The notes beneath the pieces are model-generated. The model searched no databases. It was not told the DNA's origin and worked only from the letters and a program-made list of their open reading frames with translations. Positions 5,385-30,561 of a stretch of DNA of 42,686 nucleotides are shown here, piece by piece (the first letter of the stretch is position 1; every line of letters begins with the position of its first letter). Where the stretch lies: assembly GCF_000972705.2 (NCBI RefSeq), contig NZ_LATL02000009.1, positions 1 to 42,686 on the forward strand. The letters are read 5' to 3'. Position numbers and translations under genes: made by a program. The stretch comes from Limnoraphis robusta CS-951 (GTDB lineage Bacteria; Cyanobacteriota; Cyanobacteriia; Cyanobacteriales; Microcoleaceae).

Positions 5385-8300
5385 ATGCCTGCCAGCAGCT
5401 TATCTCAATTTGATTCTAGCCTGGATGCGGCGATTAACCCCAACCCGTTAACGGTTTCTCCGCAAACGCCTCTGTCTGAAGTCTTTAGCTTGATGTGTCG
5501 GTCTAGAAAGACTTGTCAGCTTTTTACAGATGATCAGATCGAAGATGTAGAGACCTGTTGTGTTTTGGTGATAGATGATGATCGCCTTGTTGGACTGTTG
5601 ACTCCTGGGGATATTGTCCAATTAATTGCAGAGGGAATGCTGGATGTTCAGGTTAGCATCTCGGAAGTAATGACTGTTGAACCGATAACCCTAAAGCGAT
5701 CGCAATTTGAAAATCCGTTTACCCTAATTCACCGATTCAATCAATACCAGATTTGTCATCTTCCGATTCTATCCGATCAAGGGCAGGTTCTAGGATTAGT
5801 CACTCTAGAGAGTCTTCGCTGTTGCTTACCGCCTTTAGACTTTCTCAAATTTCGCCGCGTCGAAGAGGTGATGCGTCGAGAGGTGATTTATGTTTCCCCA
5901 AGTGCTACTGTTCAACAGGCTACCCAACAACTCGCGAAATCTCCAGAAAATTGTCTTGTGATTGCTGAGAAAATTTATAATTATCAACTTCAGCCTTTGG
6001 GTTTCATCACAGCCGGGGATTTAGTTCAGTTTTATGCTTTGGGGTTAGATGATCGCATCCGAGTGGATCAAATTATGAATTTCTGCTTGCCATTGATTCA
6101 CCCGGATGATAATCTAATAGAAGCGGATCGGCGAATACAGCAACATCGGATATCCCAATTGTTTGTCAGTTCACAATCGGGACAGATTGCGGGAATCATC
6201 ACCCCAAACTGCATTTTAAAGGGTCTAGATGCGATGGAAATGTACGGAGTGATTCAACTTCTCCAACAACAGGTGAGTCTACTCCTAAGCCAAGACGTTC
6301 AACTCCCTAGCCCTCAAAACGGTAAAGTTGCCCCCCCTAAACCCGATCTTAATGCGGCGATTGTAGAAACGGTCAGTAACTTAGTTGTGGTTCTTGATAG
6401 CCAAGGACGAATTGTTCGGTTTAATCAAGCCTCGGAAGCGGTAACGGGATATTCGTTTCGAGAAGTGCGAAATCAAATTTTCTGGGAAATCTTTCTCTCG
6501 TCTGAGGAACAACAGCAATTCAAAGCCAATTTTCAAACCTTACCGTCTTCTGAGTTTCCCCCTCAGCAGGAACTCACTTGGCTAACAAAAGGGGGTTTAC
6601 AGGCCCGCACGGTTTCCCATTTTAATAGTACCCTATATAACGATGCAGGTCAAGTGGAATATGTAATTTTGACGGGAGAGGATATTACGCAATATCGTCA
6701 GAGGGAAAAGGCTGATGATCAACTGACGGAAGAACTGAAAAACCGAGTGGATGAAGGCGGCGAAAAATCAACCCAATATCTGGCAAAATATCGCGGTAGC
6801 GAAAGTCAATCTCAATCGGAAAAAGAGAGATTAAAGTTTTTATTATCAGCCAATCCAGCGATTATTTATAGCTGTGATTATCAGACCTATAAAGCCACAT
6901 TTGTCAGTAAAAATGTGCGGCTAATTTTAGGGTATGACCCTGAAGAATTTTTAGAGAGTTATGAGTTTTGGTGGGAGCGAGTGCATCCCGACGATCAAGC
7001 CTTTATAGCGGTAGAAATGAACAAAATTTCCGAACAGGGTTACTATCGCTACGAATATCGGTTTCGTCATCAAGATGGTAATTATCGTTGGATGCGGGAT
7101 GAAGTGAAATTAGTTCAGGATGAAAGGGGAAATCCTGTTGAATTAGTGGGATACTGGATCGAAATTAGTGAGTATAAGCAAACCGAAGTAATTCTACAAG
7201 AACAAGAAGCCATTCTCAGTAGTTTGTGTAACAGCACAACCTTAATGATGGGAGTTGTGGAAATACTGGATAATAATATACGTCATCTGTGGGATAATCC
7301 AGCCACCGCAAAATTATTAGGCTGTGAAGTTCAGCAGTTAAAACATCAAACCTGTCGGGGGTTAGGAATTCCAGAAAACTTAACTGTACTGTGGGTCAAA
7401 TATTGTCAGGAAACCCAACAGACTCAGAAACCGGCTCACTTTGAATATACTCATCAAACCATCAAGGGAAAAAATTGGTTTTCCGCCACAATTTGTCCTG
7501 TTCCGGGAAACTTTTCTCGTCCGCGATGCTGCTATGTTGTTGAAGATATTACCGAACGAAAACGCACCGAAGAAGCCCTGCGTCATAGCACTCAAAACCT
7601 ATTAGAATCTCAACGCATTGCTCATCTGGGAAATTGGGATTTTGATGTAACAACGGGAAAGATTAGTTGGTCAGAAGAAGTGTTTCGGATTTTCGGGTTA
7701 GACCCTTGCGAAGAGGAACCCAACCTAGAAGAATGGCTAGAGATGATTCACTCCGAAGATCGGGAACAGTGCTACAACATTTTACAACGAAGCCTGAACA
7801 CAGGAGAATATTTTGATATCGAGTATCGCCTGATTCGTCCCGATGGGGAACTGCGTTATCTTCACAGTCAAGGAGAAGTGATCGAAAACCTACACAGCCA
7901 AGCGATACGGCTGTTTGGAGTGATAATAGACATTACCGAGCAGAAACTCGCCGATCAAGCGTTGTGCGCCTCAGAAGCCCGTTATCGTGCGCTGGTGGAA
8001 CAAATGCCTGCTACGGTTTACACGATAACGGTGGGGGAAGCGAGTATGCCGCTTTATATTAGTCCTCACATTGAACAAATGTTAGGATATACGACGGATG
8101 AATGGATGAGTAACCCGCAATTGTGGTGTCAATGTCTGCATCCCGATGATCGAGAACAGATGAGTAATCGCTTAAAAAATTTACCATCCCATGATCGCCC
8201 GTTTGTTTGTGAGTATCGGCTGTTAACGCGCAATCAGGATGTATTATGGGTACAAGATGCAGCCGTTGTGATTCGAGATGAGGACAATACTGCGATTTTG

Positions 8301-10181
8301 CTACAAGGGGTAATGCTGGATATTACCGAACGCAAACACACCGAAGTTGCACTGAGACAAAGTGAAGAACGGTTTAGTACCTTAATTCGGAATTTGAGTG
8401 TTGGCGTAACGTTACATGGGTCTGAGGGTGAAGTGTTGTTATGTAATCCTAAAGCATGGCAATTAGTGGGGTTATCGGAAGCGGAACTCTTAGGGATAAC
8501 ATCTCTCCCTCCAGAATGGAAAATGATTCACGAAGATGGTTCACCTTTCCCGTATAACACTCATCCGGTTCCGCAAGCAATTGTAACCCGTCAAGCGGTG
8601 AAAAATGTGTTGATGGGGATTTATCGTCCGACGGTGAAAGCGGAAGCCGAAACGGAGTTAATCTGGGTTTTGGTGAGTGCTGAACCGCAACTGAGAGAAG
8701 ATGGAACGGTTCAACAGGTGATTTGTACCTGTAGCGATATTACCATCTTGAAAAAAGTTCAGGAAGATTTACGCACCAGTGAACAACTTTATCGCACCAT
8801 TGCCCATAATTTTCCCAATGGGACTATCTTTTTGTTTGATCGCAATTTACGCTATCTCGTCGCTGATGGTCAAGGACTCGCCCATTTACAACTGCGTCGA
8901 GAAGCGTTAGAAGGTTATACTTTGTCGGAGGTGTTATCACCGGAAACTTGTACTTCGGTTGAACCGTTGTATCAAACGGCGTTAGCGGGAAGTGAACGGG
9001 TCGAAGAAATTCAATATCAAGATCAGACTTATCTCGTTCGGGCGGTGCCGATTAGAAATGAAGAGGGTGAGGTGATTTTAGGGATGATTGTTTATCAGAA
9101 TATCACAGAACACAAACAAGCCGAACTGGCTTTACAACGAGCAAACCAACATCTGGCTGAAATTAACCAACGCTTAGAACAGTCTGTTCAAGAGTTAGAG
9201 CAACGCCACCGGGAATCTGCTATTATTAATCAAATGATTGAGTTTTTGCAAGCTTGTCATGGGGTTGAGGAGGCTTACGGGCCGATTTCTGAGTTTCTCA
9301 AACAGCTTTTTCCGGGTTGTAGCGGCACGGTATTATTGAGTAATCAAAAAACGAATCAAGTGGAGTCTATCGCGACATTTGGGGAATTAGCGGCTTGTGA
9401 ACTGAACCTGGCTTTTGATGATTGTTGGGCGCTGCGACGGGGACAAATTCACCTGGCTAGTGACAGTCAACCGGGTTTGTTTTGTACTCATGTTCAGCGT
9501 GATCCTTTACCAACGGCTTCTTTGTGTATTCCAACGATTGTTCAAGGACAGGCTTTTGGATTATTTTACCTGCGAACCCAAGAATTTGAGGGGTTGAGTA
9601 AAGGTCAACAACAGTTAGCCCAAACGGTGGCGGAACAGATTTCTTTGGGTTTATCTAATTTACAATTGCGGGAGGAGTTGCACAACCAAAGTATTCGTGA
9701 TCCGTTAACGGGGTTGTTTAACCGTCGCTATTTGAAAGAGGTTTTACAGCGAGAATTTCAGCGATCGCAACGTTCGGGTCAACCGTTAGGAGTTATTATG
9801 GTTGATATTGATCATTTTAAGCAATTTAATGATCATTTTGGTCACGAGGCGGGAGATGTGGTTTTGCAGGAAGTCGCCCGGTTCCTTCAGCGTCAAATTA
9901 GATTATCGGATGTCGCCTGTCGCTACGGAGGTGAGGAGATGACGTTGATTTTACCGGAGATGTCGTTAGAAACTGTAAAAGCGAGGGCGGAACAGTTGTG
10001 TGAAGGAATTCGACAACTTCAGTTATCCTATCAAGGGAAAGATTTAGGACGGATAACGGCTTCCTTTGGGGTGGCTGGTTTTCCCGATCAGGGTTCGACA
10101 CCGGAAACTGTGATTAAAAAGGCAGACGAAGCGTTATATCAAGCTAAAAATCAAGGTCGAAATCAGGTTATTTGTGCTTAA
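5385..10181 (+). CDS. CBS-PAS-GAF-GGDEF diguanylate cyclase
   Basis: 1598-residue multi-sensor protein. Four CBS motifs (about 15-290; repeated EVM/QIM starts and GLLTPGDIV, GFITAGDLV, GIITPNCIL ends) suggest adenine-nucleotide sensing. About seven PAS/PAC units follow (approx. 320-440, 480-600, 608-725, 740-855, 865-985, 993-1125, 1134-1245), most ending in DITE-type PAC signatures. Then come a coiled coil (about 1246-1285), a GAF domain (about 1290-1425) and a GGDEF domain (about 1435-1598). The active-site motif is GGEEM at 1515-1519, a functional variant. RLSD lies five residues before it and matches the RxxD inhibitory site for c-di-GMP. No EAL domain is present, so it should make and not degrade c-di-GMP. 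No transmembrane segment is evident; it is probably cytosolic. PAS ligands cannot be told from sequence. The gene ends against a cluster of palindromic repeats that could terminate transcription. Confidence 0.93.
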   Translation: MPASSLSQFDSSLDAAINPNPLTVSPQTPLSEVFSLMCRSRKTCQLFTDDQIEDVETCCVLVIDDDRLVGLLTPGDIVQLIAEGMLDVQVSISEVMTVEPITLKRSQFENPFTLIHRFNQYQICHLPILSDQGQVLGLVTLESLRCCLPPLDFLKFRRVEEVMRREVIYVSPSATVQQATQQLAKSPENCLVIAEKIYNYQLQPLGFITAGDLVQFYALGLDDRIRVDQIMNFCLPLIHPDDNLIEADRRIQQHRISQLFVSSQSGQIAGIITPNCILKGLDAMEMYGVIQLLQQQVSLLLSQDVQLPSPQNGKVAPPKPDLNAAIVETVSNLVVVLDSQGRIVRFNQASEAVTGYSFREVRNQIFWEIFLSSEEQQQFKANFQTLPSSEFPPQQELTWLTKGGLQARTVSHFNSTLYNDAGQVEYVILTGEDITQYRQREKADDQLTEELKNRVDEGGEKSTQYLAKYRGSESQSQSEKERLKFLLSANPAIIYSCDYQTYKATFVSKNVRLILGYDPEEFLESYEFWWERVHPDDQAFIAVEMNKISEQGYYRYEYRFRHQDGNYRWMRDEVKLVQDERGNPVELVGYWIEISEYKQTEVILQEQEAILSSLCNSTTLMMGVVEILDNNIRHLWDNPATAKLLGCEVQQLKHQTCRGLGIPENLTVLWVKYCQETQQTQKPAHFEYTHQTIKGKNWFSATICPVPGNFSRPRCCYVVEDITERKRTEEALRHSTQNLLESQRIAHLGNWDFDVTTGKISWSEEVFRIFGLDPCEEEPNLEEWLEMIHSEDREQCYNILQRSLNTGEYFDIEYRLIRPDGELRYLHSQGEVIENLHSQAIRLFGVIIDITEQKLADQALCASEARYRALVEQMPATVYTITVGEASMPLYISPHIEQMLGYTTDEWMSNPQLWCQCLHPDDREQMSNRLKNLPSHDRPFVCEYRLLTRNQDVLWVQDAAVVIRDEDNTAILLQGVMLDITERKHTEVALRQSEERFSTLIRNLSVGVTLHGSEGEVLLCNPKAWQLVGLSEAELLGITSLPPEWKMIHEDGSPFPYNTHPVPQAIVTRQAVKNVLMGIYRPTVKAEAETELIWVLVSAEPQLREDGTVQQVICTCSDITILKKVQEDLRTSEQLYRTIAHNFPNGTIFLFDRNLRYLVADGQGLAHLQLRREALEGYTLSEVLSPETCTSVEPLYQTALAGSERVEEIQYQDQTYLVRAVPIRNEEGEVILGMIVYQNITEHKQAELALQRANQHLAEINQRLEQSVQELEQRHRESAIINQMIEFLQACHGVEEAYGPISEFLKQLFPGCSGTVLLSNQKTNQVESIATFGELAACELNLAFDDCWALRRGQIHLASDSQPGLFCTHVQRDPLPTASLCIPTIVQGQAFGLFYLRTQEFEGLSKGQQQLAQTVAEQISLGLSNLQLREELHNQSIRDPLTGLFNRRYLKEVLQREFQRSQRSGQPLGVIMVDIDHFKQFNDHFGHEAGDVVLQEVARFLQRQIRLSDVACRYGGEEMTLILPEMSLETVKARAEQLCEGIRQLQLSYQGKDLGRITASFGVAGFPDQGSTPETVIKKADEALYQAKNQGRNQVICA

Positions 10182-21877: not shown

Positions 21878-22546
21878 ATGAGTCGGATTTTGATTGCTGA
21901 AGATGAACCTCGGATCGCCGCCTTTCTCGAAAAGGGACTGAAAGCTAATGGCTACACCACAACAGTCGCTAACGATGGCGATGACGCCTTACAAAAAGCA
22001 TTGGGAAATCAATTTGACTTGCTTATCCTGGATTTGAATCTTCCTCATCAGGATGGCTTTCAAATCTTGAAGCAGTTACGGGGTCAGGGAGAAACAGTCC
22101 CGATCATTATCTTAACCGCTCGTGATGATCTCGAAGATAAAGTCGCAGGCCTCGAAGAAGGGGCGGATGATTATGTGACTAAACCCTTTCGCTTTGCGGA
22201 GTTACTCGCCAGGGTTCGCGCCCGTTTGCGCCATCAAACCTCTGCACCGATGAAAGAGGAACGGGTGTTAACCGCAGGGGATATTCTCCTGGACTTGTAT
22301 ACTCGTCAAGCCCAAGTCGGTGATTGTCCCATCAAACTTTCTGCTAAAGAATTTCAGCTTCTCGAAACCTTGATGCGTCATCCCGAACAAGTGATGAGTC
22401 GAGAGCAACTACTGGATCGCGTTTGGGGGTATGATTACGATCCGGGATCTAATATTGTTGATGTCTATGTGGGATATCTGCGGAAAAAACTTGGAGGCGA
22501 TCGCATTGAAACGGTGAGAGGGATGGGTTATCGGCTCTGTCCTTAA
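21878..22546 (+). CDS. OmpR/PhoB-family response regulator
   Basis: 222 residues. The receiver domain (about 1-118) has the acidic pair in EDEPR, phospho-acceptor Asp52 in ILDLNLP, the Thr of ILTAR and Lys102 in VTKPF. The C-terminal winged-helix DNA-binding domain spans about 125-222 (LSAKEFQLLETLMRHPEQVMSREQLLDRVWGYDYDP, then VDVYVGYLRKKL). No histidine kinase is encoded in the window, so it is an orphan by position. Its target is unknown. It is the last gene before the long leader of the giant acidic protein gene, and a terminator separates the two. Confidence 0.94.
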   Translation: MSRILIAEDEPRIAAFLEKGLKANGYTTTVANDGDDALQKALGNQFDLLILDLNLPHQDGFQILKQLRGQGETVPIIILTARDDLEDKVAGLEEGADDYVTKPFRFAELLARVRARLRHQTSAPMKEERVLTAGDILLDLYTRQAQVGDCPIKLSAKEFQLLETLMRHPEQVMSREQLLDRVWGYDYDPGSNIVDVYVGYLRKKLGGDRIETVRGMGYRLCP

Positions 22547-22803: not shown

Positions 22804-23341
22804 GATCAAAAAAATTTGTATGAATAAATTATAACTTTTAGATCTCAGTAAAAACACGTAAATTGCCCGATTTAATTTTAGCTATCACTTAGAGATTGAT
22901 ACTAAAATCCTTGCGATATGATGCTTTCAAGACTTTCTAGGGCGGATTTCAAAGTTCCGTGTTTTCACCGATGCCGTTGTTGGAGTCAGGGTGTAAAAAT
23001 TGAATATGTAGGTCTAAAAAATCATAAAAATCTTCTCATCTGACCCTCATAGAGATCTTAAAACTGTTGATTAGAATCAGGGTATAGAACAAAAAGTTCG
23101 GTGTAAGGCCTCAGATTAAATCCTGAAAGATGAGAACTAAAAAATCCAAGCTGAAAGGAGGACATCAATTCAGGCTTGAAACGAAGCTAATCACAGCTCA
23201 ATTCTAGGGTCTTTATCAACCGAATTCCCCCTTCTAGTCTGGGTGAAATCTCGAAGGGAAAAGTAGACTCCGGTTAGTCACTAACCTACAGATTTTTTTT
23301 GAGTAAAGTTTTTGTAATTTAACTAGAGGTTTTATTTAGCT
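22804..23341 (+). promoter_or_regulatory. Long non-coding leader with an attenuator-like hairpin before the giant gene
   Basis: About 540 bp with no open reading frame of note. At 23272-23286 GGTTAG/CTAACC forms a small stem-loop followed, after six bases, by eight Ts (23293-23300), only about 40 bases before the ATG at 23342. AGTCT/AGACT around 23236-23269 could form an alternative stem overlapping it. A strong GGAGG at about 23157 has no start codon behind it. The structure suggests transcriptional attenuation, but this is inference. Confidence 0.35.
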
Positions 23342-26300
23342 ATGGATGACTTAATTTTTGACCCCTTAACTGGCCTTCCTGTTAACGAAGAAACCCAAAC
23401 CATCACAGAAGAACCCGTTGAGTCTGTGGATGTTGTACCGGGAGACTCAGACGATGAACCCGTCGAAATTACAATAGTAGAAGACGGCGATGATGAGGAT
23501 GACACCGATGATGAGGATGATGATGAGGATGATGACATCGACGACAACATTGACGATATTAATCAACCCGTAGATGTCACCTCAGACGATGATATAGATG
23601 ATGACATCGACGACGGTTCAGAAACGCCTGTTGATGAGACCCCCATCCCTACTGAACCCGATGGCGGAATAGGAGACGGCGCAGAACCCCTTCCCGATGA
23701 AGCGGTACAAACAGGAGTTGAACTGGATGATACAGAATCAACAGATGATATCCTGGAAGAATTATTTGATGTAGATGCTTACTTAGAATTCAACGCCGAC
23801 ATCAAAGCCTTAGTAGATGCAGGTCAACTGGATGCGAAAGCACACTTTGATGAGTTTGGTAAGTTTGAAGGTCGGGAATTTAGCTACATTTTTAATATCA
23901 CCGAATACTCAGAGAAAAACATTGATGTTGCCCAAGTTGTCAGCCGTCAAAGTTTACTCACCCATTTCCTAGAATCTGGCATCAAAGAAGGACGGGAATT
24001 TAACAGCTTATTTAAAGTTCAGAAGTACCTAGAAAAGAATACTGACCTCGATAGCATTTTCCAAGGTGAAGGTAAATTTGTCAGTGCTATCCGTCACTTC
24101 CTGCGGTTTGGACAATACGAACAACGCGAATGCGGCGACTTCTTTAAACCCGGCGAATATCTCAGCTTTAACTCCGATTTAGAGTCTTTTGTTCAAGGTG
24201 GTCAATTCAGTCTGTTCAAGCATTTTTCTCAGTTTGGTAAGAAAGAAAGACGGGAATTTAGCAACTTCTTTAAAGTTGGTGAATACTTAGAACTCAACCA
24301 AGACCTGGTTGAATTTGTTCAGTCCGGTCAAATTAATCTGGTTGACCACTGGTTCAAGTTTGGACGGTTTGAAAATCGTGAGTTTAGCTTCTCCTTCTCG
24401 GTTTCTAAAGTTCTAGAAGTTCTGCAAATTTCTAGCATCGCTGAGTTAGATATCGAACAATTAGTTGAGTCTATTGTTAGCAACCTGAACCTCATTTTAG
24501 GCGATGATGATGACGCCGATGATGATGACGTTCCTCCTCTAGATGATGATGACACCGATGATGACACCGATGATGATGACGCCGATGATGATGACGCCGA
24601 TGATGATGATGCCGATGATGATGATGCCGATGATGATGATATAGCAGGAGACGATAGCGACGACTCCGAGGTTGGCGGTGAAGGAAATGACGGTATTGTT
24701 GGAGAAGTTCCTCCTGTCAACATTCCCGGTGAAACTCCCGATGACGGTGAAACTCCCGATGACGGTGAAACTCCCGATGACGGTGAAACTCCCGATGACG
24801 GTGAAACTCCCGATGACGGTGAAACTCCCGATGACGGTGAAACTCCCGATGATGATGGCGAAGTAGAACCCGTATCTCAGGTTTATCTCAACATTAAAGT
24901 TGTTAAAGGGAACGCCGAACTGTTAGAAAAACTCGGTATTACAGGTGAAATTAGCAACGAAGAACTGCAAGACTTGTTACTCGAAAAAGACTTGTCTGAC
25001 CTGAAAGGAGTCAAACTGTCTAAGTTCTTTGATGTTGATAAACTTTTGAAGGAATTTGATGCAGAAATCAAAGCTTTCTTTTCAGTTGAATCTGTTGAAA
25101 CCCTGAATTTAGGACAGTTAATCCAATTCGTTCAAGAGGAAGTTGTTGGCAAAGGAAACAGTCCTTCAGCTAAAGTTAACTTTGATTATCTCAAAGCAAT
25201 TCACGGCGAAAAGCTAACTGAAGAACTGGGAGAAAATCCAACTCCTGAACAAATTCTTGAATATCTAGAAGAAAAAGGAATTAAAGAAGGTTTAAATACT
25301 TCTGCTTTCCTAGACTTCAACTTCATCAAAAAACAATACGGTGAAGAAATTCGCGAAGAAATTGATGTTGAGAATGCCAGCGAACTCACCGATGAACAAG
25401 TTATCGACAGTGCGAACTTAGAAATTGAGGTTGATGTCGAATATTCTAAAGTAAAATATGCAGTTCAACTGGCTCAATTCTTTAATATTGAAATCGAGCA
25501 AGTTAGCAGCTTAGAAGTTTCTCAAATCAAGAGCTTTGTCCTCGAGCAAGAGTTAAGTGGTTCTGTATTTGACTTCAAGAAACTGCGTAAAGAACTTAAA
25601 GGATTTGAAAAAGAAATCAAAGACTTTTTCAAAGGTGGAGTTAAAGACTTCGATGACTTAACCGATGGTCAACTCAAAGCGTTCTTAAAAGGCGAAGGTT
25701 TGAAACTCGGACTGCTGAAGCAAGTGGTTGATGTTGAATACCTGAAAGAAGTCTACAAAGAAGCTTTAGAACTTCAATTTGGTGCTGATGTTACCGTTGA
25801 TGAAACCTTAGAATTTATCTACGGTGGAAAACACCCTTATATCGATGAAAAATGGGTTCGTAAGCAATTCAAAGATGAACTGGAAGACTTTGCAGAATCT
25901 ATCGGTAAGAAAGAAAAAGACCTGAATTTTGAGGAAATCAAAGAATACTTCTTCACGGAAGGGTTTGAAGCCGACAAACAACTGTCTGCATTCCAAGTCG
26001 AAGTTTATCGCACAGAAAATGCTTCAGCACTGACAAGTTTCTTTGAAGTAGCAAACGTTAGTTTAATCAGTTCCGAACAAGTCTACAAGTACATGGTGAC
26101 GGTTGGCTTGGAACAAGGAATTGACCTTTCAACCTATATTGAAGAAGAAACTGTAGAAGTTTACCGCACAGAATTCGCTGAGAAAATCGCATCTTTCTAC
26201 AATATTGAAGTCACTGAAGTTAGTGAACTTAATGTCAATGTTGTGATTGATTTTGTAGTCGGTGGTTTATCTCAAGAGATTGACTTTGACTACTTCCGTC

Positions 26301-29300
26301 AAACTTTTGAAGGCGATGTTCAAGCTACCTTTGGTGTAGAGTCTATTATCGAAGTTAGCAAACTGCAAATTGTTGAATTCGTCTACGAACAAGAAGGTGC
26401 AGTTGAGTTTAGCAAGTTAAACTGGTTCAACGCTAAAGAATACAAAGCAGAATTCGGAGAAGAACTTGAAGCCGCACTGAAAGAATACTATGCCGAATTC
26501 AAAGATATTTCTGAACTTTCCTTCGAGCAAGTCTTCAAGTTTGCTATCGAACACAGCGAAGAATTTAGCTTAGAAGGATTAGTTGACCTCGAGTACGTTA
26601 AAGACACTTACGCGGCTGCAATTGCTGAAGCGCTGGGTGTTGATATCGCCGCTATTACAGGTGAAGATGTTGTAACGGTTTCTGACACTGAAATTCTCGA
26701 GTTCTTAGCGGAAACAAATGTTACTGCAATTGCTGACTATGCGGATGTTGATGAAGATGGTGTCACCGACGAATTAGCAACAGAATGGTTTACACAGTCG
26801 AACGTTGTCAGTGTGGAAGGTGGAGAACAAGACATTAATTATGACTTCGTTCGCTATCAACTGACTCAGGTTATTACCGCAGAAAATCTCACCAGTGTTT
26901 CGGAAATTCTAGAGATTGAGTTAACTGCTGTCGAGGATATTGATACTCTCACGAACGAACAAGTTGCTCAGTTAATTTCTGATAGCGAGTTCGAGGAAAT
27001 TCTGGGTGAAGAAACAACAATTGAACTGGTACCGGCTGAGTTTAACCTAGAGTTCGTTGTCTCTGTTTACGGTGAACAAATCATTACCGCTCTTGACTTA
27101 GAAGCGGATGCTGTAATTACTCAAGAACAAGTCATTGAATACTTCAGCACAACTTTCGCTACCGAAATTGAAGAGTTTCTGGGTGATGAAGGCGATGATG
27201 ATGATGATGCTGAAGGCGATGATGATGCTGAAGGCGATGATGATGCTGAAGGAGATGATGATGCTGAAGGCGATGATGATGCTGAAGGCGATGATGATGT
27301 AGAAGGAGATGATGATGCTGAAGGCGATGATGATGTAGAAGGAGATGATGATGCTGAAGGAGATGATGATGCTGAAGGAGATGATGATGCTGAAGGCGAT
27401 GATGATGTAGAAGGCGATGATGATGTAGAAGGAGATGATGATGCTGAAGGAGATGCTCCCTTTACCGATGCGGATGTTCTAGAATACATCAAACAACTCG
27501 ATGTTACAACGGTTGCTAAACAAGTCGAAGTTGATGAAGAGTACGTTGAGTTCCAACTAAACAGTTTAGTCGAAGCAGGAACCGTTACCGTCGAAGAAAT
27601 TAACACCATCCTCTCTGTTACAGTTACCAATGTTGAAGAACTGACTGCTCAACAACTGGTTCAACTGTCTGGAAGCGAAACATTCCAAAGCTTTGAACTC
27701 AAACTGGTTCAGTCTGAAATTAGCTACGAATATATTCGTCAAACGCAGACTACCGAAATTGCGACATTCTATGAAGTCTCAGAAGACGATGTTCTGCGGG
27801 GAGAAGTTGTTCCTCTGACGGATGCGGATATTCTCGATGGTTTAGATGATACCTTCGCTAACCTCGATGTTAATTACCTGAAATATCAAATCTCGCAGTT
27901 AACGGTTGAACAACAAAATCAATTGTTAGCAGAGTTTGAAATTGAAGTCACCGATATCTCTAAACTCAGCGTTAAACAGGTCGTTGATATCTGCTTCAGT
28001 CGCGAGTTCGAGGAAATTCTCGGAGAAGAAAAGGTCAAATATAGTCCTATTGACCTCGACAAATACCGTGAAGATAACGCAGAAGAAATCGCCAAGTTCT
28101 ATCACGATATGGATGATGACTCTGATGATGATTCGGATGATGATTCGGATGACTCTGATGATGATTCGGATGATGATTCTGAAGAAATGGATGATGATTC
28201 CGATGATGATTCCGATGATGATTCCGATGATGATTCTGAAGAAATGGATGATGATTCCGATGATGACTTGGATGATGATTCTGACGACTTGGATGATGAT
28301 TCCGATGATGACTTGGATGATGATTCCGATGATGACTTGGATGATGATTCCGATGATGATTCTGATGATTCTGATGATGGCGTAGGTGATAACGTTGATG
28401 ACCCCGACGACATGGAAGGTGGAGAAGTCGATGTTACTTCCATCCCCGATAAAGACTTAATCAAGTTCATGTTCGGTAAGGGATGGAAAAACGGAATCAA
28501 CCCGTTAGAATATGTCGATGAAGACTCTGAAAACTACCTGCGAGAAGAATTTAAACATGAACTCGCAGAACGGTTTGAAATTGCGGTTGAACAAGTTGCA
28601 GAACTTCCTTCTGAAATGGTTGTCGGAGGTGTGTACAGCAAGTTTGTTGCAAAAGAAGAAGTCGATGTCGAGTTCTACAAATCTACCCAAAAGACTGTTT
28701 TAGAAGCCAATTTTGGAGTTTCAGTTGAGGAACTCAGCGAAACTCAAATTGTTGAACACGCTTCAACCTACGGCTTGGCAAATAGCTTAGAATTGTCTCC
28801 GGTTGATGTTCATGGATTTGTCGAAGAATATAAGTCAGAAATCGCTGAACACTTCGAGATTTCTGTTGAAAAAGTCGCCGAACTTGATGCTTCAGTTGTC
28901 AAGACGTTCATCTTAGAAACAGCAACCGAAATTGGTTTAGATGTCGGAGGGTTCGTTAACCTCGAATACTATCGCGGTTTAGAAGAAGTGGTTGAAAACT
29001 ACCGAGTTGAACAGGTTTATTCCTTCAACTATGAAGCTGCTTTCGAGTATACCGAAACACAAGCAGTCAGCACTTCTGCTATTCTCGATACTGAGTGGTT
29101 CCGCCAAGAAAATGCTGCGTTGATTGAGCAAAATCTAGAGGAACTTGATACTGATGAAAGCGGTGAGGTTGAAGATGATGAATTAATCGGTGAAATGCAG
29201 GGTCAATTCCTCGAAGAAGGTTTAGAAACTGATGACTCTTATGACCTCGATGAATACATCGCAGAAAATGGAGATGTCCTGACTGATTTCTACGGTAAAC

Positions 29301-29566
29301 CTCTCGATGAAATTAGTAACCGTCAAGTTGTTGAGTATGCTTTCGGTGCAGGTTTAGAAGAGGGTGTTGACCCCTACAGCAATGAATTCCTGACTGAAAA
29401 TCCTGAGTTACAATTGGATACATTCGTAGCTCAAAATGCTCAACAGTTGACTCAATTCTACGGGGTTCAAGAAGTGACTCAAATCAACTTCTATCAAGCC
29501 TATCAATATCAAGTTTCCTTCGGTTTAGTGGGTACGACAACTGATTCTTCTGAAGGAATTGTCTAA
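23342..29566 (+). CDS. Giant acidic repeat protein with Asp-rich tracts and EF-hand-like loops
   Basis: 2074 residues; function unknown. Layout: acidic leader (1-140); five ~42-residue repeats at about 141-350, each like YLEFNADI ... HFDEFGKFEGREFS; a D/A tract (388-435); seven GETPDD copies (463-505); a long block of divergent 45-55-residue repeats (about 510-1280; Y-x3-E ... FYN-IEV-x-ELxxxQVxxF); fourteen DDD(A/V)EG units (about 1281-1373); more repeats; a DSDDDS/LDDDS tract (about 1591-1680); and final repeats to the C-terminus. DTDESGEVEDDE (1936-1947) is a perfect EF-hand loop; DVDEDGVTDEL (from 1135) is a partial one. There is no signal peptide or transmembrane segment, and only about two cysteines. 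Family knowledge: N-terminal-type repeats occur in cyanobacterial surface and RTX-like proteins. Inference: a Ca2+-binding surface or matrix protein, perhaps exported by a type I system through its C-terminus. A weak AGAGG lies upstream of the ATG. Confidence 0.85.
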   Translation: MDDLIFDPLTGLPVNEETQTITEEPVESVDVVPGDSDDEPVEITIVEDGDDEDDTDDEDDDEDDDIDDNIDDINQPVDVTSDDDIDDDIDDGSETPVDETPIPTEPDGGIGDGAEPLPDEAVQTGVELDDTESTDDILEELFDVDAYLEFNADIKALVDAGQLDAKAHFDEFGKFEGREFSYIFNITEYSEKNIDVAQVVSRQSLLTHFLESGIKEGREFNSLFKVQKYLEKNTDLDSIFQGEGKFVSAIRHFLRFGQYEQRECGDFFKPGEYLSFNSDLESFVQGGQFSLFKHFSQFGKKERREFSNFFKVGEYLELNQDLVEFVQSGQINLVDHWFKFGRFENREFSFSFSVSKVLEVLQISSIAELDIEQLVESIVSNLNLILGDDDDADDDDVPPLDDDDTDDDTDDDDADDDDADDDDADDDDADDDDIAGDDSDDSEVGGEGNDGIVGEVPPVNIPGETPDDGETPDDGETPDDGETPDDGETPDDGETPDDGETPDDDGEVEPVSQVYLNIKVVKGNAELLEKLGITGEISNEELQDLLLEKDLSDLKGVKLSKFFDVDKLLKEFDAEIKAFFSVESVETLNLGQLIQFVQEEVVGKGNSPSAKVNFDYLKAIHGEKLTEELGENPTPEQILEYLEEKGIKEGLNTSAFLDFNFIKKQYGEEIREEIDVENASELTDEQVIDSANLEIEVDVEYSKVKYAVQLAQFFNIEIEQVSSLEVSQIKSFVLEQELSGSVFDFKKLRKELKGFEKEIKDFFKGGVKDFDDLTDGQLKAFLKGEGLKLGLLKQVVDVEYLKEVYKEALELQFGADVTVDETLEFIYGGKHPYIDEKWVRKQFKDELEDFAESIGKKEKDLNFEEIKEYFFTEGFEADKQLSAFQVEVYRTENASALTSFFEVANVSLISSEQVYKYMVTVGLEQGIDLSTYIEEETVEVYRTEFAEKIASFYNIEVTEVSELNVNVVIDFVVGGLSQEIDFDYFRQTFEGDVQATFGVESIIEVSKLQIVEFVYEQEGAVEFSKLNWFNAKEYKAEFGEELEAALKEYYAEFKDISELSFEQVFKFAIEHSEEFSLEGLVDLEYVKDTYAAAIAEALGVDIAAITGEDVVTVSDTEILEFLAETNVTAIADYADVDEDGVTDELATEWFTQSNVVSVEGGEQDINYDFVRYQLTQVITAENLTSVSEILEIELTAVEDIDTLTNEQVAQLISDSEFEEILGEETTIELVPAEFNLEFVVSVYGEQIITALDLEADAVITQEQVIEYFSTTFATEIEEFLGDEGDDDDDAEGDDDAEGDDDAEGDDDAEGDDDAEGDDDVEGDDDAEGDDDVEGDDDAEGDDDAEGDDDAEGDDDVEGDDDVEGDDDAEGDAPFTDADVLEYIKQLDVTTVAKQVEVDEEYVEFQLNSLVEAGTVTVEEINTILSVTVTNVEELTAQQLVQLSGSETFQSFELKLVQSEISYEYIRQTQTTEIATFYEVSEDDVLRGEVVPLTDADILDGLDDTFANLDVNYLKYQISQLTVEQQNQLLAEFEIEVTDISKLSVKQVVDICFSREFEEILGEEKVKYSPIDLDKYREDNAEEIAKFYHDMDDDSDDDSDDDSDDSDDDSDDDSEEMDDDSDDDSDDDSDDDSEEMDDDSDDDLDDDSDDLDDDSDDDLDDDSDDDLDDDSDDDSDDSDDGVGDNVDDPDDMEGGEVDVTSIPDKDLIKFMFGKGWKNGINPLEYVDEDSENYLREEFKHELAERFEIAVEQVAELPSEMVVGGVYSKFVAKEEVDVEFYKSTQKTVLEANFGVSVEELSETQIVEHASTYGLANSLELSPVDVHGFVEEYKSEIAEHFEISVEKVAELDASVVKTFILETATEIGLDVGGFVNLEYYRGLEEVVENYRVEQVYSFNYEAAFEYTETQAVSTSAILDTEWFRQENAALIEQNLEELDTDESGEVEDDELIGEMQGQFLEEGLETDDSYDLDEYIAENGDVLTDFYGKPLDEISNRQVVEYAFGAGLEEGVDPYSNEFLTENPELQLDTFVAQNAQQLTQFYGVQEVTQINFYQAYQYQVSFGLVGTTTDSSEGIV
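24502..24645 (+). repeat. Asp-rich tandem repeat tract within the giant gene
   Basis: A run of GAT/GAC codons with GCC and ACC interspersed encodes DDDDADDDD-type sequence. It is a likely substrate for slippage and length variation. Confidence 0.85.
24730..24858 (+). repeat. 18-bp tandem repeat encoding GETPDD
   Basis: Seven essentially identical 18-bp units (GGTGAAACTCCCGATGAC), identical at DNA level, so recently expanded or kept uniform by recombination. They form a Pro/Thr-rich acidic linker after the first Asp tract. Confidence 0.9.
27184..27459 (+). repeat. 18-bp tandem repeat encoding DDD(A/V)EG
   Basis: Fourteen units of (GGC/GGA)GATGATGATG(CT/TA)GAA type, the A/V and GGC/GGA variants interspersed, which lets copies be tracked. 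Third low-complexity linker of the giant protein. Confidence 0.9.
28112..28380 (+). repeat. Ser-Asp-rich tandem repeat tract within the giant gene
   Basis: GATGATGATTC(C/T/G) units encode DDDSDDDS, with longer-period LDDDS and EEMDDDS variants. Superficially like the Ser-Asp repeats of mineral-binding phosphoproteins; no homology is implied. Confidence 0.88.
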
Positions 29567-29648: not shown

Positions 29649-29683
29649 GAGGTGTTAGGTCTTCGGACTTAGCACCTCATTTT
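29649..29683 (+). terminator. Rho-independent terminator after the giant gene
   Basis: GAGGTGTTAGGTC, a TTCG tetraloop, and GACTTAGCACCTC form a stable stem followed by ATTTT. A second, weaker hairpin (ACCCGT/ACGGGT, 29688-29717) follows. Together they suggest that the FecR gene has its own promoter, though read-through is possible. Confidence 0.75.
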
Positions 29684-29838: not shown

Positions 29839-30561
29839 ATGAGGAGTTCACTTAAACCCATGAAATCTCGTTTAGGCGGATTAGGAGTTGCCCTAACCAT
29901 CGCTTTTGCGGCTATTGAGGCGATCGCACAAATCGATTTAGCAATCCTAACAGAAATTCTCGGAGATAACAACGAAGTCTTTATCGAAAACCAAGTTGCC
30001 CAAGAAAACGATAATGCGACTATCGGCGAAGAAGTCCGCACCGAACAAGCCCGAGCGCAGATTGATTTTAACACAGGCGCATCGGGACGAATCACCGAAA
30101 ATTCTGCGATTGTTGTGGGTCAATGTATCGAAGTCCAACAAGGGGTTTTAGTGGCTTCAGGCCCTGCTAACGGTTGTCTTTCCGGGTTCGCTGTCGGTGT
30201 CCAAGGAACGATTTATTTAATGAGTGCTGATGAAGACGGAATTGGTACAATAAACGTTTTAGAAGGTGAAATTCAACTGGCTCTCCAAGATAACCCCGAT
30301 GACCCCAACGCCCTAACCATTACAGCCGGACAGAGGGTTGCAAGCTTAACACAGGGTTTAGCGCTGGCGGAAGTTCTGATAGAACAAATGACCAAAGAAG
30401 AATACGAAGCGATTATTCCCGGGCCGTTATTTAGAGGGTATCAAAATCCATTACGGGATCAAGATAAAATTGATGAAGTTTGTAAACGGCTTTATGGAAG
30501 TTGTCTGGCTGTGGGAAGTGAACCGCCACAACCCCCCACACCCGTTCGAGGTCTATGGTAA
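29839..30561 (+). CDS. FecR-domain exported protein
   Basis: 240 residues. Signal peptide with hydrophobic core LGGLGVALTIAFAAIEAIAQ (cleavage about residue 30). A FecR-like beta-rich domain follows (about 45-165), recognised from EEVRTEQARAQIDF, GVQGTIYLMSA and TINVLEGEIQL with AGQRV. In Fe-siderophore systems FecR is a periplasmic transducer, but cyanobacterial FecR-domain proteins are usually stand-alone and of unknown role; no sigma factor or TonB receptor is here. Five cysteines are present (CIEVQ, GCLSG, VCKRLYGSC), possibly disulphide-bonded. The C-terminus is Pro-rich. An AAAGGAG ribosome binding site about 7 bases upstream supports ATG 29839. It lies downstream of the giant acidic protein gene and shortly upstream of the pentapeptide gene. 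Confidence 0.82.
   Translation: MRSSLKPMKSRLGGLGVALTIAFAAIEAIAQIDLAILTEILGDNNEVFIENQVAQENDNATIGEEVRTEQARAQIDFNTGASGRITENSAIVVGQCIEVQQGVLVASGPANGCLSGFAVGVQGTIYLMSADEDGIGTINVLEGEIQLALQDNPDDPNALTITAGQRVASLTQGLALAEVLIEQMTKEEYEAIIPGPLFRGYQNPLRDQDKIDEVCKRLYGSCLAVGSEPPQPPTPVRGLW

Follow-up and report, generated by a model that had tools for sequence, protein, structure and literature searches.

Limnoraphis robusta encodes a giant A/B-repeat protein, a putative calcium-binding surface protein of cyanobacteria

What kind of protein is encoded by the very long open reading frame (ORF) at positions 23342..29566 (plus strand) of contig NZ_LATL02000009.1 from Limnoraphis robusta CS-951, whose 42,686 nucleotides are here called the window? 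The gene and its product, referred to below as the giant, comprise 2074 codons in an apparently monocistronic unit, with an orthologue in Lyngbya aestuarii BL J. On sequence grounds the giant is a member of an undescribed family, the giant A/B-repeat proteins of filamentous cyanobacteria, and we consider it on balance probable that it is a modular, Ca2+-binding surface or sheath protein, secreted by a type I system and held under dedicated signalling control.

The ATG-started frame has no internal stop, and the reverse-strand frame examined over it is riddled with stops. The product (232 kDa, isoelectric point 4.05) contains 15.1% Asp and 14.1% Glu, 29% together, and two Cys. Because its maximum 19-residue hydropathy is only 1.24, the giant has no membrane segment or evident signal peptide; signal peptides, here and in the type A proteins discussed below, were assessed from hydropathy or by eye, with no predictor. 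The frame check and composition, together with the repeat profiles described below, confirm what an earlier, sequence-only reading of the window had reported, namely a giant acidic ORF with repeat blocks, two cysteines and no membrane segment. The nearest relative found is that of L. aestuarii BL J (locus L001), the best segment being 81% identical. Since the non-linker blocks from residue 141 onward share 79–87% identity with it, at a ratio of nonsynonymous to synonymous substitution rates (dN/dS) of 0.15–0.29, they are constrained coding sequence under purifying selection. The N-terminal region aligns with gaps (75% identity, dN/dS 0.26), and the C-terminus reads EGIV, where relatives end in, for example, DGLA or FSV. 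We note that the L. aestuarii giant (L001, 10001-16407) is presented as two overlapping ORFs with a frame change at linker 1, which may be an assembly error or real.

Along the plus strand, an acidic N-terminal region defined by composition (residues 1–141; 23342..23764) is followed by the type A array (residues 142–353; 23765..24400), five 42-residue repeats of the pattern F...YL..N.D....HF..fG..E.RefS. Type B repeats, located by profile, fill two blocks (residues 516–1278, 24887..27175, dN/dS 0.21 against L. aestuarii; and residues 1374–1588, 27461..28105, dN/dS 0.29) and recur, together with an EF-hand loop, in the C-terminal block (residues 1696–2074; 28427..29563), which is delimited by alignment A4 (residues 1700–2074). 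The five tandem type A repeats score domain E values of 5e-15 to 1e-19 with a hidden Markov model that has the giant's own repeats among its seeds. The type B repeats, of about 50 residues, are divergent: 27 matches pass E < 0.01 and 20 pass E < 1e-5, many being partial. Iterated profiles recover 180 A and 800 B repeats across 41 proteins, that is, 38 giant-type ORFs plus three von Willebrand A (VWA)-type proteins; one of the three (L080) is counted among the 38 as well. Structure prediction of one repeat block, which the earlier reading had proposed as a check, yields a confident model: AlphaFold2 builds residues 131–395, from 28 sequences, as an all-helical array (mean predicted local distance difference test score 92.6, predicted template modelling score 0.86). 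Homology between the two repeat types looks plausible by eye and is undemonstrated, because hhalign assigns it a probability of only 2–13%. A sequence search of the PDB with the type A and type B blocks finds nothing better than E 0.1 (best E 0.26 and 0.13, respectively). Pfam matches nothing in the giant above cut-off (best DUF7194, E 0.003, 17.4 of 27 bits), and the sole NCBIfam match is to low-complexity sequence and below cut-off (E 0.13). The repeats of this family are absent from Pfam and NCBIfam, the two family libraries searched.

Two minor features lie within the arrays. A DxDxDG-like stretch, DVDEDGVTDELA, occurs in mid-giant (window 26744-26779, residues 1135–1146), where L. aestuarii has other residues. 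Residues 246–270 of the L058 giant, in its type A array, give a short PASTA match (24.1 bits against a cut-off of 23.2, 25 of 64 positions) that is weaker in L056 and L057 and is probably due to chance.

The family is defined here by an N-terminal type A array, type B blocks and a C-terminal EF-hand block, all of which the giant has, and the C-terminal block of alignment A4 is taken as its signature (family alignments: A2, with 36 rows, A3 and A4). Library, PDB and homologue searches linked the giant to no known family, as had been supposed. A first protein search returned 11 relatives, of which the four named are from Oscillatoria princeps, Laspinema, Phormidium and Ancylothrix; a second, with a Laspinema query, returned 21 and added Oscillatoria acuminata and Oxynema. 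These searches scored only the approximately 8000 candidates sharing most words, and a profile search with 36 giants yielded 4 proteins only, apparently swamped by low-complexity words. Lyngbya, Laspinema, Oscillatoria, Phormidium, Ancylothrix and Oxynema are filamentous, non-heterocystous genera. A sample of 388 genomes from the order of L. aestuarii contains 111 with matches at E <= 1e-30; among the matches listed, at least 37 of the 388 extend beyond the N-terminal repeats (a few being only fragments), and the remainder cover the type A region only. The C-terminal block, used as a query, has matches in 3 of the 388 genomes sampled in the class and in 14 of 61 in the Lyngbya family sample; 12 of these 14 are giants (one, in G295, split over two frames) and two are weak matches in smaller ORFs. 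By themselves, type A arrays are more widespread: 51 of 388 genomes in the class have them at E <= 1e-15, frequently in several copies. A pattern scan of viral contigs found no relatives of the giant, and the open-licence PubMed Central (PMC) literature yielded nothing on the repeat motif or, by title and start of abstract, on the giant family. The extra domain carried by the giants of L045-L047 has two further occurrences among 60 family genomes, both inside other giants. At L106 (7689-8243, genome G061) a 184-residue C-terminal remnant of a second giant remains, with the same neighbours as a 1913-residue copy in G038 (L076).

The conserved feature that points to calcium is a 12-residue EF-hand loop in the C-terminal block, DTDESGEVEDDE (residues 1936–1947; 29147..29182, plus strand). 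Its Asp at position 1 and Glu at position 12 are invariant in all 36 aligned rows, which include at least two pairs that are apparently the same protein (P0004/L049 and P0011/L048), and its Gly at position 6, present in the window, is missing from some relatives. Searched against the PDB, the A4 profile matches 164 sequences at E <= 1, of which the best 60 are nearly all calmodulins, centrins and polcalcins; the best whole-sequence E is 1.7e-4, and single stretches are weak (polcalcin, 0.6). Pfam EF-hand_5 and EF-hand_1 are each matched by 7 of 29 members at E <= 0.1. Most members have one loop, located within a type B repeat, and the L045-L047 type has a second just before it. Binding of Ca2+ through this single invariant loop is the likely prediction.

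Do the acidic linkers account for the Ca2+ loading that the sequence-only reading inferred? By residue, the low-complexity tracts are an acidic stretch near the N-terminus (~45–92), DDDDA (~388–440), GETPDD (~462–505), DDD(A/V)EG (1281–1373) and DSDDDS (~1590–1690), with tandem arrays visible in the DNA. Linker 1 (residues 385–515; 24494..24886; composition and alignment) includes the DDDDA and GETPDD tracts, linker 2 (residues 1279–1373; 27176..27460; composition and DNA tandem array) the DDD(A/V)EG tract, and linker 3 (residues 1589–1695; 28106..28426; composition, alignment and DNA tandem array) the DSDDDS tract, all on the plus strand. Identity to L. aestuarii is 75%, 41% and 59% for linkers 1, 2 and 3, of which the last two are gapped and differ in length; dN/dS is also low, 0.20–0.37, on a repeat alignment that is unreliable. 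Asp and Glu make up 51% of linker 1 and 66% of linker 3 in the window. Over the 36 aligned rows, the acidic content of linker 1 ranges from 5%, in Pro/Thr-rich linkers, to 52% (the L071 giant), the L067 row has no linker at this position, and linker 3 is Lys-rich in several relatives. The RTX repeat (PF00353) exceeds its cut-off in linker 1 of L056, L057 and L058, which are mutual close relatives, and in linker 3 of L049, that is, in 4 of 9 giants scanned. Five of the nine (L048, L049 and L056-L058) were picked for RTX-like linkers and account for 4 of 5, the L048 giant having no PF00353 match; the other four account for 0 of 4. Because linker composition varies so much across relatives, acidity and RTX repeats are traits of lineages. 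The four acidic linkers of the window protein are real, but they describe its lineage only, and as a conserved Ca2+ device they were rejected: what stands of the supposed Ca2+ loading is the probable binding by the EF-hand loop. The same variation makes it highly improbable that the giant works in the sheath by sequestering mineral or calcium with its Asp-rich linkers, although the acidity of window linkers 1 and 3 would suit such a role and L. aestuarii is a marine mat former, according to an excerpt of its description (PMC3858816); the mineral-interacting part of the earlier proposal is left without support. As an observation apart, linker 3 of L068 spans 338 residues with many KDTG repeats, combining acidic and basic character, where the window has its DSDDDS tract.

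The location of the giant is suggested by the company that type A arrays keep. Twenty regions with type-A-only matches and three L. aestuarii loci were picked, and a type A ORF is present in all but one of these 23. Of the 22 ORFs, L117 and L118 were omitted because they resemble L124 and L112; the 20 scanned comprise 17 from 16 other genomes and three from L. aestuarii. Fourteen of the 20 have Pfam domains above cut-off, mostly of exoprotein type: subtilase (two), RTX, GDSL lipase, NHL, FG-GAP, PPC (two), PhoD, PETase-like, CAP (two), clostripain with PPC, and DUF4394/CHRD. One more type A protein of L. aestuarii, beyond the 20, also has PhoD. The array begins within the first 140 residues in 21 of the 22 ORFs and is C-terminal in L043; the ORFs have 0–4 Cys and no evident signal peptide, their start codons being unsure in a few (L107, L119). 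More distant relatives bear VWA/SdrD_B or RTX domains. Cysteine amounts to 0.16% in the 38 giant-type ORFs, whereas 180 other ORFs from the same loci, each of 300 residues or more, contain 1.16%. For export, the HlyD adaptor TIGR01843 is found above cut-off in 5 of 6 genomes of giant-bearing relatives and in 1 of 14 control genomes; only matches above cut-off were counted, because 13 of the 14 controls also match. HesF offers a cyanobacterial precedent for TolC-dependent export without a signal, at least in the available excerpt (PMC4390845). Since type A repeats cap exoprotein-like enzymes, cysteine is depleted and some relatives have RTX linkers, an extracellular giant, on the surface or in the sheath, is the likely and best reading, in agreement with the large surface or sheath protein first suggested.

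Might it be a large adhesin, or a matrix protein of biofilm or sheath with no specific link to gliding? LapA-type and BapA-type adhesins, exported by type I secretion systems, are models for such a protein. We regard this possibility as a tentative one. Giant size, a stalk of repeats, rapid linker turnover and the signal-less profile all fit, as do the patchy presence of the giant, its clean absence from some relatives (see below) and the VWA and SdrD_B domains of others. Pfam and NCBIfam, however, place no known adhesin domain or retention module above cut-off in the window protein, and type A arrays, being found on enzymes too, need not be adhesive.

The genes next to the giant were compared at 39 loci, several of which end close to the giant and so hide its neighbours. 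In the window, a PhoB/OmpR-type response regulator (21878..22546, plus strand; Pfam Response_reg and Trans_reg_C) lies upstream, a neighbour that the sequence-only reading had overlooked along with the conserved element between the two genes. The same arrangement, on the same strand, is found at 12 of the 39 loci, window included, with a spacer of 612–829 nt in 11 of the 12 and of 801 nt in L001. Within the Lyngbya family sample (60 genomes), a regulator of at least 77% identity is present in 12 of 12 giant-bearing and 2 of 48 other genomes (Fisher p 7e-11, uncorrected for kinship and with the identity threshold chosen post hoc); three further genomes have it at 66–68%. In L103 (4920-5656) and L104 (4854-5590), the regulator is followed about 60 nt on by the gene found beyond the giant in relatives, which presumably encodes a gamma-glutamyl phosphate reductase. 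The giant is cleanly absent from these two loci, as the regulator directly precedes the far-side flanking gene.

At 14 of the 39 loci, distinct from those with the regulator, a gene for a Ser/Thr kinase-GUN4 protein is located 94–501 nt downstream of the giant on the same strand, and at one more it lies 4.3 kb away. Pfam confirms kinase and GUN4 domains in 5 of 5 scanned (for example, L052 12146-13522). A search for this kinase in 14 genomes gives the giant-adjacent copy as the genome-wide best match in all 10 genomes having one; in three genomes of the regulator clade the best match reaches only 36% identity, and G061 has a 54% copy with no adjoining giant. In a tree of 29 C-terminal blocks, the regulator and kinase sets each fall on one side of a branch with support 92/92; seven rows are unlabelled and may fall inside, and the window is a long branch of unsure placement. 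GUN4 domains have been proposed as sensors of photosynthetic status (PMC7159879, in excerpt), the kinase and GUN4 architecture has been noted in Nostoc (PMC1262709, in the portion available), and a gene with both domains is tabulated for a phage-resistant cyanobacterial substrain (PMC10811720, likewise in part).

Alternatively, the giant might belong specifically to the gliding machinery, forming a fibril or track on the surface of Oscillatoriales and performing the job assigned to oscillin; the regulators would match its level to light and photosynthetic status. The named relatives all come from filamentous genera, most relatives bearing no name; L. aestuarii BL J has fast-gliding hormogonia (PMC3858816, in excerpt); and oscillin and SwmA tie Ca2+-binding exoproteins to cyanobacterial motility in the text seen of PMC3034196. 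Nevertheless, we think this improbable: the C-terminal block sits in a giant in only 12 of 61 family genomes, two relatives are cleanly without the giant, and no motility gene is recognised beside it. The same cytosolic neighbours, and the lack of a visible signal peptide, might instead indicate an intracellular scaffold or signalling substrate acted on directly by the kinase and the response regulator, which we judge distinctly improbable in view of the cysteine depletion, the type A repeats on exoenzymes and the RTX repeats of some orthologues.

The spacer between regulator and giant contains an operator-like element, TCAT-N7-TCAT-N4-ATCTTAAA (23036..23062, plus strand), identified by spacer alignment and pattern search. 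Its two TCAT half-sites are 11 bp apart, a spacing that fits the direct-repeat sites of PhoB/OmpR proteins. The element lies within the best-conserved block of 10 aligned spacers; four of these (the window, L001, L059 and L060) have it in exact form, and the remaining six in degenerate form. Across 16 genomes, 11 of them with a giant, the exact element occurs as one copy in each of 3, always in this spacer; the reversed pattern, as a control, gives 0 in the same genomes. In the window, one copy is exact and two differ at 3 positions, and at a tolerance of 3 mismatches the shuffled window yields a mean of 0.9 matches, with at least 3 in 5 of 100 shuffles. Promoter-like hexamers overlap the element (23050..23077, plus strand) and are weak, no better than chance by themselves (1 found versus 2.1 expected in shuffles). 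An Rfam scan of the window, long leader included, gave no match at gathering score, and a riboswitch was rejected.

For the preferred reading, a Ca2+-binding surface or sheath protein exported by a type I system, the following course can be proposed. The giant would leave the cell unfolded through an ABC/HlyD/TolC (type I) system with no N-terminal signal; once outside, it would fold as Ca2+ fills the EF-hand and, in some relatives, the RTX linkers, and would come to sit on the outer surface or in the sheath. The type A array, common to many exoenzymes, may be a shared module for docking or export, with the B blocks forming a long stalk and the linkers serving as flexible charged spacers. In the clade of the window, the PhoB/OmpR-type regulator would control the giant through the conserved upstream element; in the other clade, the adjacent kinase-GUN4 protein would take the regulator's place. 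The giant may function in a surface trait, for example sheath structure, adhesion or gliding.

Several results weigh against this scheme. With regard to calcium, the window's own EF-hand segment has no Pfam EF-hand match, and the Pfam scan finds no PF00353 in the window protein or in those of L046, L069 and L071. With regard to location, 6 of the 20 type A proteins scanned have no Pfam domain above cut-off, the NHL/lactonase match on another is not specifically extracellular, 40 of the 180 ordinary ORFs are as poor in cysteine as the richest giant, and no type I secretion gene is seen among the 20 window ORFs scanned. In addition, the partner genes are themselves no pointer to a surface protein, since both kinases and response regulators reside in the cytosol. 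With regard to control, the regulator is kept in 2 genomes that have no giant, and the exact element is found in just 3 of the 11 giant-bearing genomes searched of this clade.

Which known proteins does the giant resemble? Like the RTX exoproteins (PF00353) of type I systems, it is acidic, poor in cysteine, with no evident N-terminal signal and linked to Ca2+, and some of its relatives contain RTX repeats; unlike them, it has no RTX match, its bulk consists of type A and type B repeats, and secretion genes are not seen beside it. Oscillin of Phormidium uncinatum is likewise a Ca2+-binding surface protein of an Oscillatoriales cyanobacterium, but has 646 residues with 46 repeats and is counted as RTX, a comparison by description from part of PMC3034196. 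HesF of Anabaena PCC 7120, also compared by a description seen in part, differs in being a heterocyst-specific attachment factor. The VWA/SdrD_B proteins P0008-P0010 (Laspinema, Phormidium) share an N-terminal type A array followed by regular, 49-residue type B repeats, whereas they measure about 1370 residues and end in VWA and SdrD_B domains. With EF-hand proteins such as calmodulin and polcalcin the giant shares the 12-residue loop bounded by Asp (position 1) and Glu (position 12); in this family the loop, identified by sequence, is single in most members and lies inside a type B repeat. The giant would thus be an example of an already known kind, the Ca2+-linked, signal-less exoprotein, built from unfamiliar repeats. 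A bolder proposal, which we regard as doubtful, is that type A is a general cyanobacterial tag for docking signal-less exoproteins to the surface or sheath (or for exporting them), borne by proteases, lipases, phosphatases and RTX proteins as well as by the giant, the giant being its Ca2+-locked structural member, a sheath or gliding track whose output is set by an interchangeable OmpR-type regulator or tetrapyrrole-sensing GUN4 kinase.

Cyanobacterial exoproteins and their export are poorly known, and the type A module, if it is a true surface address, would provide a handle on what cyanobacteria place in the sheath and how. The giant makes a testable case, with one conserved Ca2+ loop, a neighbouring regulator, a candidate operator site and two natural absences. 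That homologous genes have an OmpR-type regulator as neighbour in one clade and a GUN4 kinase in the other would tie a surface structure to signalling, and possibly to photosynthetic status.

On its other side, the giant is followed by a terminator-like hairpin of 13 pairs (29649..29678, plus strand; 1 found versus 0.3 expected in shuffles) and then by a FecR-like gene (29839-30561) with no Pfam match above cut-off (FecR, E 0.11). FecR homologues occur in 10 of 60 family genomes and share a contig with the giant in just three of them (G001, G141 and G076); in two loci they lie 3–4.5 kb off, on the other side of the giant, and in most other holders they are unlinked. The pentapeptide and deacetylase genes recur near the giant only in L. 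aestuarii, within the flanks fetched. The envelope theme once read into these three genes finds no support, and an envelope operon was rejected, as the genes are not conserved beside the giant and the hairpin parts it from FecR. The idea that the giant's neighbours vary freely thus applies to the immediate FecR-side genes and not, within its clade, to the OmpR-type regulator.

Elsewhere in the window, a tRNA scan found none. An IS605-type transposase gene (OrfB/TnpB-like) occupies 10-1230; L. aestuarii has a distant (38%) copy between ABC permease and ATPase genes. A 1598-residue protein with CBS, multiple PAS, GAF and GGDEF domains is encoded at 5385-10181, and a HEAT-repeat protein at 37474-39465 matches NACHT and the NACHT C-terminal helical domain 4.

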